Shown: positions 41,955-49,886 of the stretch, one piece after another
Layout of the letters: each line of letters starts with the position of its first letter
How positions within the stretch are numbered: the stretch's first letter is position 1
Source: Candidatus Micrarchaeota archaeon CG1_02_47_40
Lineage (GTDB): Archaea > Micrarchaeota > Micrarchaeia > Anstonellales > CG1-02-47-40
Direction: 5' to 3'
DNA: 64,000 bases
NCBI GenBank assembly: GCA_001871475.1
Contig: MNVE01000002.1
Coordinates: 62,001 to 126,000 of the forward strand
The notes under the pieces: model-generated
The model's input: only the letters and a program-made list of their open reading frames with translations
Database searches by the model: none
Told to the model about the DNA's origin: nothing
Program-made: the position numbers and the translations under genes

Positions 41955-43775
41955 ATGCAAACCCTGCTTGAGAACGAAATAGCGAAGCTGATTGCGGATG
42001 CCACAGGTTTATCGGCAGAGGAAATACTTCCCACTCTTGAAATACCGAAAAACAACCTCGGCGAGCTTGCCTCCACCTGCCCCTTCGTGCTTGCTAAAAG
42101 AGAGAAGAGAAATCCTTTGCAGATAGCGCAGGAAATCGCCTCCAAACTCCCAAAACACAAATGGGTGCAAAAAGCGCAGGCGACCGGACCTTACATAAAT
42201 TTCTTCCTCTCCGAAGAATTCTACTCCGACGCGCTCTCGCACATCTTAAAGGAAGGGAAAAAATACGGGAAAGGAAAAAAGCAAAAGGGAAAAACAATAG
42301 TTGAATTCCCTTCAGTGAATCCCAACAAGCCCTGGCACATAGGGCATTTGCGAAATGCGATTTTAGGGGACTGCATTGCGCGCCTTCTTTCCTTTTCAGG
42401 CAAGGAAGTAGAGGTGGAAGATTACATAGATGATTTGGGTTTGCAGGTGGCTGAAAGCTTATGGGGCTATCTGAAGAATGCGAATGCCGGAAAAGAAAAA
42501 TTCGACCACTTTCTCGGAAAGGAATATGTGGAAGTGGAAAAGAAAATGCAGGACGAGACAGTAAAAACAGAAGTAAGAAAACTGCTGAAGGAAATGGAGG
42601 AAGGGAAGGGAGAAATTGCAAAAAAGCACGACGAAATGGTGCAAAACTGCATCCGCGCTCAATACGAAACAGCTTTCAAATTAAAAATCTACCACGATGT
42701 CCTGGTGCGCGAATCGGAAATAATGGGCACAATATACGGGGAGGGAATGGAACTTCTCTCAAAAAGCAAAAAAATAGTGCATGAGACGGAAGGGAAGAAC
42801 GCAAACTGCCTTGTGGCGCGGATGGAAGGGGACGAGTTCAAAAATTTAGAAAATCCCGACATGATATTGGTGCGTAGCGACGGCACAGCCACCTACACCG
42901 GCAAAGACGTGATTTTTCATCTCTGGAAATTCGGAAAATTAAAGGGAAAATTCAAGTATTCAAAATTTCTAACACAGCCAAACGGCAGCGACTGCCATAT
43001 CACCTCCGCAGAAGGCAAATCCCTTCCCTTTGGAAAAACGTCCTCCTGCATAAACATAATAGGGGTTGAGCAGTCCTACCAGCAGAGCGTTGTGAAAGAA
43101 ATACTGCGCATTCTTGGATATGAAAAAGAAGCATCTTCCCTCCACCACCTTGCATACGAGCACGCCGCCCTTCCCGAAGGAAAATTTTCAGGGAGAGCAG
43201 GCACCTGGATTGGTTATACTGCCGATGAATTGATTGAAGAGGGAGTAAAAAGAGCAAGCGAGAAAGCAGGGAAGGAGCTGGGTGAAGAGGAAAAGAAGGC
43301 AATCGCAAATGAGGTTGCAATAGGCGCGATACGCTTCTCCTTCGCCTCGCAGTCTCCCGAGAAAAAAATAATATTTGACTGGGACAGGGCGCTTTCTCTG
43401 GAAGGGGATTCCGCACCATATTTACAATATGCATACGCGCGCATGAGCGGGATAATACAAAAGGCAGGGGGGTTGAAGATGAAGAAAGGGAAGGCCGACT
43501 ACCCCTTCAGCGAAAATGAAAAATCACTCCTCCGCATTCTTTCCCGCTTTCCCAAAACCCTCTCCCATGCCGTGCACGACTTGAGGCCCCACATCCTCTG
43601 CGACTACTCTCTTGAGCTTGCCTCCTCCTTCAACAAATTCTACAATACCTCTTCCATACTGAAAGCGGAGAGCATTGAGGCAAAACAAGCGCGGGTGCGT
43701 ATTCTTCTCGCATCAAAAAACTGCCTTGAAAACGCGCTTTTGCTGCTTGGAATAACTCCGCTTGAAAAAATGTAA
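41955..43775 (+). CDS. argS: Arginyl-tRNA synthetase
   Basis: Class I synthetase charging tRNA-Arg, 606 residues. FPSVNPNKPWHIGHLRNAILGD (about 116-137) holds the HIGH motif. The KMSKS counterpart is replaced by GKFSGRAGTWIGYTADELI, as in other ArgRS that lack a canonical Lys there. The N-terminal Add-1 domain (1-85) and C-terminal helical anticodon-binding domain (about 480-606, ALSLEGDSAPYLQYAYARMSG) are present. It ends 2 bp before the 3' end of the convergent tRNA-Arg gene, its own substrate, which is a notable neighbour. Confidence 0.96.
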   Translation: MQTLLENEIAKLIADATGLSAEEILPTLEIPKNNLGELASTCPFVLAKREKRNPLQIAQEIASKLPKHKWVQKAQATGPYINFFLSEEFYSDALSHILKEGKKYGKGKKQKGKTIVEFPSVNPNKPWHIGHLRNAILGDCIARLLSFSGKEVEVEDYIDDLGLQVAESLWGYLKNANAGKEKFDHFLGKEYVEVEKKMQDETVKTEVRKLLKEMEEGKGEIAKKHDEMVQNCIRAQYETAFKLKIYHDVLVRESEIMGTIYGEGMELLSKSKKIVHETEGKNANCLVARMEGDEFKNLENPDMILVRSDGTATYTGKDVIFHLWKFGKLKGKFKYSKFLTQPNGSDCHITSAEGKSLPFGKTSSCINIIGVEQSYQQSVVKEILRILGYEKEASSLHHLAYEHAALPEGKFSGRAGTWIGYTADELIEEGVKRASEKAGKELGEEEKKAIANEVAIGAIRFSFASQSPEKKIIFDWDRALSLEGDSAPYLQYAYARMSGIIQKAGGLKMKKGKADYPFSENEKSLLRILSRFPKTLSHAVHDLRPHILCDYSLELASSFNKFYNTSSILKAESIEAKQARVRILLASKNCLENALLLLGITPLEKM

Positions 43776-43794
43776 AACGGGCCCGGCGAGATTT

Positions 43795-43914
43795 GTTCGG
43801 TCTTCAGCCCCTACCTTTCTTCAGGGGGGTGAAGCCCTTCGCAAATGCTTGCATTTGCGAGACTTGACGCGAAGCGTCAAGCGGATAGGGGGGTGAAACC
43901 CCCCATATGGGATT
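43795..43914 (-). other. 120-nt T-loop intron of tRNA-Arg, hairpin-rich
   Basis: The exact ends are ambiguous by 2 nt because of repeated A. It contains TCGCAAATG-CTTG-CATTTGCGA (43839-43860), CTTGACGC-GAA-GCGTCAAG (43863-43881) and GGGGGG-TGAAA-CCCCCC (43888-43904); CCCCTA (about 43809-43814) and TAGGGG (43886-43891) could form an enclosing stem. Confidence 0.65.
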
Positions 43915-43941
43915 GAACTCGCGGCCTACAGCTTAGAAGGC

Positions 43942-43972
43942 TTGCGGAAATAATGCCGTTTGGAATTATTCT
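43942..43972 (-). other. 31-nt anticodon-stem intron of tRNA-Arg (29/30)
   Basis: Removal is needed to form the anticodon stem. The intron has a self-complementary core (AATAAT/ATTATT), which could give the helix of a bulge-helix-bulge splice motif. CAAG is repeated at both edges. Confidence 0.6.
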
Positions 43973-44109
43973 TGCCGCTCTATCCAGGCTGAGCTACGGG
44001 CCCGCAGTTTTGTTTATGCATCTGAAGGGTTTAATAATTAATTGCAGTGCGGTTTTTCCTGTTTCGAACATGCACTTCTTTTAAAAATCTTCCCGGAGTT
44101 TCCATACAC

Positions 44110-49685: not shown

Positions 49686-49886
49686 AAACCTACGGTTTGA
49701 GTGTGCTTCGCACACTGCCCGACAACTGCGTTGTCGATTTCTCAAACACCGTGAGAGCAGTCAAACACCGTGAAAGCAGGCAGGATGAGATTCGTATTTA
49801 CTCTGCTTGCACGGTGTTGATGAGAATTGCACCTACTCTGCTCGCACGGTGTTCACCCACTTCCCTTTTAATTAGCCCTACGGTTT
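49686..49886. repeat. Composite inverted-repeat element downstream of mcm
   Basis: A 10-bp direct repeat cctacggttt is at 49689-49698 and 49877-49886. Between them: outer stem GTTTGAG (49695-49701)/CTCAAAC (49741-49747) around AGTGTGC-TTC-GCACACT (49700-49716) and CGACAAC-TGC-GTTGTCG (49720-49736); two direct copies of caaacaccgtgaNagcag (49743-49760, 49762-49779); and two inverted copies ctgctNgcacggtgtt (49803-49818, 49838-49853). No gene is seen. Confidence 0.8.

Follow-up and report, generated by a model that had tools for sequence, protein, structure and literature searches.

Can a tRNA gene whose T loop is split by 120 nt still yield a tRNA, and where would such an insertion have come from? 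The question is raised by a tRNA-Arg(UCU) gene on the minus strand of a 64,000-nt stretch of DNA (the window hereafter) from an archaeon that its relatives place in Micrarchaeota, near Burarchaeum. According to a preliminary description of the locus, the four arms of this tRNA can be completed only if 31 nt are removed from the anticodon stem and 120 nt from the T loop; the positions, the lengths and the UCU anticodon it gave all hold, supported by BHB motifs and by an intronless syntenic orthologue. The precursor gene is 226 nt long (43778..44003, minus strand, as are all of its parts) and forms a cloverleaf once the two introns are removed. Exon 1 (43973..44003, tRNA positions 1-29, delimited by alignment to the orthologue at L120) is followed by the 31-nt intron 1 at 29/30 (43942..43972, AGAATAATTCCAAACGGCATTATTTCCGCAA), exon 2 (43913..43941, positions 30-58, including the UCU anticodon, the 5' strand of the T stem and UUCAA), the 120-nt intron 2 in the T loop at 58/59 (43793..43912), and exon 3 (43778..43792, positions 59-73). 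What is left after removing 43972..43942 and 43912..43793 is a 75-nt tRNA-Arg(UCU), GGGCCCGTAGCTCAGCCTGGATAGAGCGGCAGCCTTCTAAGCTGTAGGCCGCGAGTTCAAATCTCGCCGGGCCCG, so that the criterion for archaeal BHB introns that their removal restores a canonical tRNA is fulfilled. The locus is, by inference and without RNA data to document the splicing, a working, spliced tRNA gene.

The join at 29/30 is fixed by intron 1, which carries a full BHB (5' GCGG-CA^A-GAAUAAU ... AUUAUUU-CCGC-AA^G) with a 7-bp outer helix. The join at 58/59 is fixed by the arrangement GUUC-AA^U ... GAAC-AA^A around intron 2, in which the central helix pairs GUUC (43918-43915) with GAAC (43798-43795) and the bulges are AA^U and AA^A. 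Both junctions meet the archaeal requirement of a 4-bp central helix with 3-nt flanking bulges. The unconstrained MFE fold of the whole precursor includes the acceptor stem, the D arm, the T stem, the BHB helix of intron 1 and the hairpins of intron 2, while the second BHB helix has to be forced at a cost of 0.3 kcal/mol. Because its outer helix is not continuous (h2=0), the intron 2 BHB is considered a relaxed motif.

Intron 2 was initially described as containing three hairpins that match a dispersed family. Three perfect hairpins are present as described, although a fourth, imperfect one was missed in that count; the membership in a dispersed family was confirmed, and the shared core was also found outside tRNA genes. 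This core, a long form of the structure CCC-AUAU-[hairpins]-A-GGG identified by nhmmer clustering and by model R1, occupies 43835..43911 and encloses the three perfect hairpins. The first, GGGGGG-UUUCA-CCCCCC (43888..43904), has a stem that covaries across the family. The second, CUUGACGC-UUC-GCGUCAAG (43863..43881), has identical copies in the anticodon-loop intron of tRNA-Arg(UCG) and at other loci, and the third, UCGCAAAUGC-AA-GCAUUUGCGA (43839..43860), has no second exact copy in the genome. The imperfect hairpin, CUUCACCCC...GGGGCUGAAG (43802..43834), was recognized in the MFE fold.

The gene that lies convergent with the tRNA gene (41955..43775, plus strand, 606 amino acids) is a probable arginyl-tRNA synthetase, which we take to be argS from its C-terminus. 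Just upstream of it, a second intron-bearing tRNA gene of the window, tRNA-Pro(CGG) (41863-41716, minus strand), has two T-arm introns at 53/54 and 59/60. When the probable argS was used as query in 59 genomes of the order, a strong relative was found in 57 of them, and in the same-family genome G003 (62% identity) the same two neighbours enclose an intronless tRNA-Arg(UCU) (L120:3384-3458) that is inverted relative to the studied locus. The spliced 75-nt tRNA is identical to this orthologue at 69 of 75 positions, and five of the six differences fall in the T stem with pairing kept. Two pairs are compensatory changes with respect to G003 (GCGAG/CTCGC against GTGGG/CCCAT), in a stem whose halves lie 120 nt from each other in the gene. 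Therefore the intron boundaries are right and the gene is under structural selection.

Such compensatory changes, as well as the presence of a BHB at both junctions, speak against the locus being a pseudogene, a tRNA gene wrecked by repeat insertion while the real Arg(UCU) tRNA is encoded elsewhere, an idea that can draw on the dispersed repeat forming the core of intron 2. Another intact tRNA-Arg(UCU) gene was listed in the preliminary description as part of what would refute it; a search of the genome found none, and the studied gene is the only AGA-reading tRNA found. AGA and AGG account for 64% of the Arg codons in the 12 long ORFs of the window, AGA alone occurring 97 times. The genome is 93% complete and an unseen intact Arg(UCU) gene is therefore possible. 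However, about 37 of the 44 tRNA genes located in the genome are interrupted in the T arm and cannot all be dead, and we consider the pseudogene explanation very improbable.

This last count indicates that tRNA-Arg(UCU) is not a lone oddity. As a tRNA finder, ARAGORN returned no tRNA in the window and nine in the genome, or 17 when anticodon-loop introns were allowed, and the Rfam tRNA model RF00005 saw 11 in the genome against the 44 eventually located. Because these tools found so few, a custom scanner was written that searches the whole genome for cloverleaves with T-loop inserts, and the 44 genes were located by combining it with spliced alignment and hand reading. In about 84% of them an insertion splits the T arm, in about 30 cases with a full BHB helix. 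By position, 13 insertions are at 56/57, 11 at 58/59 and 6 at 59/60; a further six belong to a weak-motif class, one is found at 53/54 only, and seven genes have an intact T arm. These per-class counts are a hand tally, and a few anticodons (Ile-UAU, one Pro) are uncertain. Two tRNA-Val genes on contigs C10 (9616-9710, minus strand) and C11 (124670-124950, plus strand) apparently have introns in the D loop.

Among 25 T-loop introns that had been found without applying a BHB rule, 23 have all four pairs of the central helix at the junction dictated by the tRNA; in 500 shuffles the number averaged 1.9 and never exceeded 6. These numbers and the intronless syntenic orthologue establish that the BHB in tRNA-Arg(UCU) is more than chance. 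In the 56/57 class it is the 3' end of the intron that matches the host T stem (GGGU/GCCY, AGGU/GCCU, GAGU/GCUC). The motif is weak or differently placed in about seven of the 37 T-arm insertions, and in the T-loop introns of 41-47 nt (Gly-TCC, Asp, Trp, iMet, Pro-CGG, Leu-TAG) two of four central pairs are formed in the two that were scored; we have left this class as relaxed motifs. The retention of a complete BHB helix at the exact junction boundary is also difficult to reconcile with a mature tRNA that would keep the T-loop insert as an expansion loop. While structured inserts might be tolerated, the T loop must dock with the D loop and the same tRNAs have normal T loops in related genomes, which makes this possibility extremely slim.

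The preliminary description had connected introns at such positions with splicing endonucleases of broad specificity and proposed that the type encoded by the genome be identified. The connection is borne out. A single splicing endonuclease gene was found (contig C11, 395 amino acids), and its product matches the ARMAN-2 epsilon2 enzyme over its full length (PDB 4fz2, E=6e-136, alignment over residues 6-395). The equivalents of the catalytic residues Y236, H251 and K282 and of the lysine K161 of the ARMAN-specific loop (ASL), whose roles have been described (PMC6379350), are conserved with respect to 4fz2. The protein fulfills all criteria for the epsilon2 type: a single chain, three units, the Tyr/His/Lys triad and the ARMAN-specific loop lysine. 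Enzymes of this type cut relaxed BHB motifs (PMC6379350, PMC12397907). A gene for RtcB is also present. This tRNA ligase gene (contig C6, 15037-17982) includes an insertion of about 490 residues with intein-like ends (C... to ...HN-C) and LAGLIDADG-like motifs, which looks like an intein.

Directly observed for this locus are its anatomy, both BHBs, the intronless syntenic orthologue, the enzyme genes, the genome-wide pattern and the common core. The explanation that we hold with high confidence is that of a functional tRNA-Arg(UCU) whose precursor transcript would fold into a cloverleaf with two BHB motifs, both of which the epsilon2 endonuclease would cut, at 29/30 and 58/59, before RtcB would ligate the exons into the sole AGA-reading tRNA that was found; that this cleavage and ligation take place in the cell is inferred. 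The T-loop intron would be a recent gain from a paralogous family that is characterized by a CCC-AUAW-hairpin(s)-UNA-GGG core and that may have been copied, by a route of spread that is also inferred, into many tRNA genes of the lineage and outside tRNA genes. The gain itself is deduced from comparison with relatives. In more distant relatives (loci L133, L137, L140), the Arg(UCU)-like gene next to argS has no intron in G207 and only an anticodon-loop intron in G135 and G186, and as none of the three has a T-loop intron, gain is favoured here; most likely the T-loop intron of tRNA-Arg(UCU) was gained in this lineage, the direction being an inference. Intronless G003 counterparts were also found for other interrupted tRNAs, namely Ala-CGC (71 of 73 positions identical), Glu-CTC, Lys-CTT, Lys-TTT, Asn, Gly-TCC, Thr-CGT, Gly-GCC and Arg-CCG, and G003 itself has about ten T-loop introns, every one of them short.

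The family to which intron 2 belongs was traced with nhmmer and model R1 in the T-loop introns of Arg, Thr, Leu, His, Ser, Tyr, Gln and other tRNAs, and in the anticodon-loop introns of Arg-CCT, Ser-CGA, Ser-TGA and Cys, so that similar intron sequences in unrelated tRNAs, the criterion for a transposed intron family, are present. An alignment of 19 copies from T-loop introns, anticodon-loop introns, other loci and two relatives has 98.5% of its paired cells filled by pairs and 29 double changes; its covariation score is 0.47 versus 0.16 for shuffles, and slid controls fall away. As the copies were chosen and trimmed by hand, this score leans towards structure. Model R1 has 28 matches in the genome at E<=0.001 and matches in 22 of 59 genomes of the order, with none in the intron-poor relative G003. 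At the studied locus the match (43917-43888) reaches only E=2e-6 because the inner hairpins make the locus longer than the model. A conserved and covarying core could be taken as a sign that the T-loop intron is a small self-splicing ribozyme and not a BHB intron, but no Rfam family, group I included, was matched at gathering threshold in the window. In addition, introns of 33-46 nt at neighbouring T-loop positions lack the core and still keep the BHB, which indicates that the core is not needed for splicing. We give the ribozyme almost no credence.

About 13 copies of the core lie outside tRNA genes, several of them at gene borders, and where this was checked they are antisense to the adjoining genes. 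Five of the 13 lie between direct repeats, which measure from 20 to more than 70 bp: C11:73975-74028 (38 bp), C11:225755-225869 (at least 58 bp, identical, with both neighbouring genes kept intact), C15:228780-228840 (37 bp), C11:108338-108436 (74 bp, diverged) and C11:270570-270704 (20 bp). Most of these repeats are far above random pairs and the 20-bp one only slightly so; for the C11:108338 copy a chance repeat invalidated the random-pair control. Just upstream of six dispersed copies is the sequence TTCA (five TTCATT, one CTCTTCA), which resembles the TTCAA of the T loop. The 3' end of a tRNA lies only a few bases from the start of two copies in this genome and of several in relatives, and at L206, L210, L211, L213, L214 and L225 of related genomes the core stands just behind the tRNA in the manner of a trailer element. 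Another palindrome, AACACCGTGAGAGCAG...CTGCTCGCACGGTGTT, is separate from the core and likewise dispersed; it is sometimes nested inside the intron core and was located at about 49759-49823 of the window and at C11:52725, C11:178609, C13:13961, C15:1828 and C4:95230.

We read the core as a mobile repeat connected with tRNA introns whose source and direction are not settled. It is possible, and we propose it only tentatively, that a mobile hairpin repeat with a preference for insertion after TTCA invaded many tRNA genes at the T loop (GTTCAA); each insertion would have been spliceable from birth, since of the two BHB strands one would come from the T loop and one from the insert. If spread ran in the reverse direction, from tRNA introns outward, the dispersed copies would be introns that had been excised and reintegrated, and would not have given rise to the introns. 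In favour of this, archaeal introns are able to persist as RNAs after excision, and many tRNA introns contain the core. Against it, the intron tail past the second C-run is missing from the dispersed copies, and a search for reverse transcriptase (PF00078) gave no match. We rate this direction as possible but less likely than not. As for the mobile repeat itself, no mobilising enzyme could be tied to the core. A Y1-transposase (IS200/IS605-like) gene end at the starts of contigs C10 and C15 (1-220 in both) was rejected as a candidate, the hairpin behind it (GCGCCCTTTAGGGCGC) being unlike the core; its repeat sequence is also common to the ends of C5 and C13, which makes four contig ends in total.

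T-loop invasion looks repeated and patchy in the order, because Rfam tRNA counts vary, a relative has a different insert family and matches in the phylum are scattered. Across 29 genomes the tRNAs visible to Rfam range from nine in G005 (97% complete) and 11 in the studied genome and G077 up to 45. In G005, from another family of the order, eight of 12 tRNA genes found by the scan (345 kb only) have T-loop introns with the same BHB geometry that carry a different, A/T-rich insert family, and at loci L233-L250 these A/T-rich hairpins fill T-loop and other tRNA introns. Short patterns of the 56/57 type match in 27 of 196 genomes of the phylum, ten times in the studied genome. Since the standard tRNA model misses most of the genes (11 versus 44), tRNA-based quality scores and codon-reading predictions for such genomes can mislead.

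According to PMC4090602, the mechanism of archaeal tRNA intron transposition is still unknown. In the present case intron gain is directly testable: a genome of the same family offers empty sites, and one structured core turns up in introns of both the T loop and the anticodon loop, directly downstream of tRNA genes and, flanked by target-like direct repeats, at the borders of genes. The link between introns and repeat is a concrete lead on the spread of archaeal tRNA introns and, if insertion of a mobile repeat proved true, it would constitute a DNA-level mechanism for their gain, one that could be read from target duplications at other loci and from intronless orthologues in related genomes.

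Compared with known systems, the endonuclease resembles the ARMAN-2 epsilon2 enzyme (PDB 4fz2, 9w2k; PMC12397907, PMC6379350) as a full-length homologue with the catalytic triad and the ASL lysine, and differs in that its genome is heavily loaded with T-loop introns and in that its activity is inferred. The positions of non-canonical archaeal BHB introns given in PMC4090602 are 29/30, 53/54, 56/57, 59/60, 'etc.'; the introns described here share the same or one-base-away positions, the BHB at the junction and the occurrence of several introns per gene. The 58/59 of tRNA-Arg(UCU) is absent from that open-ended list, 120 nt looks long to us for a T-loop intron, and about 84% of the located genes have an interrupted T arm. 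In the Asgard groups Atabeyarchaeia and Freyarchaeia the tRNA genes are intron-rich (92-95% of tRNAs), likewise often at non-canonical positions, and most tRNA genes are interrupted there as here; the concentration in the T loop and the link to a repeat core are not stated in what is available of that report (PMC11291895). The transposition of tRNA introns in Thermoproteales (Fujishima 2010, as described in the available parts of PMC4033280 and PMC4090602) concerns another phylum, and those parts do not mention copies outside tRNA genes with flanking direct repeats, which are found here together with a structured core. The tRNA-Arg(UCU) gene itself is a known type of intron-bearing gene; what is new, as a variation on known systems, is the genome-wide T-loop load and the link between introns and repeat.
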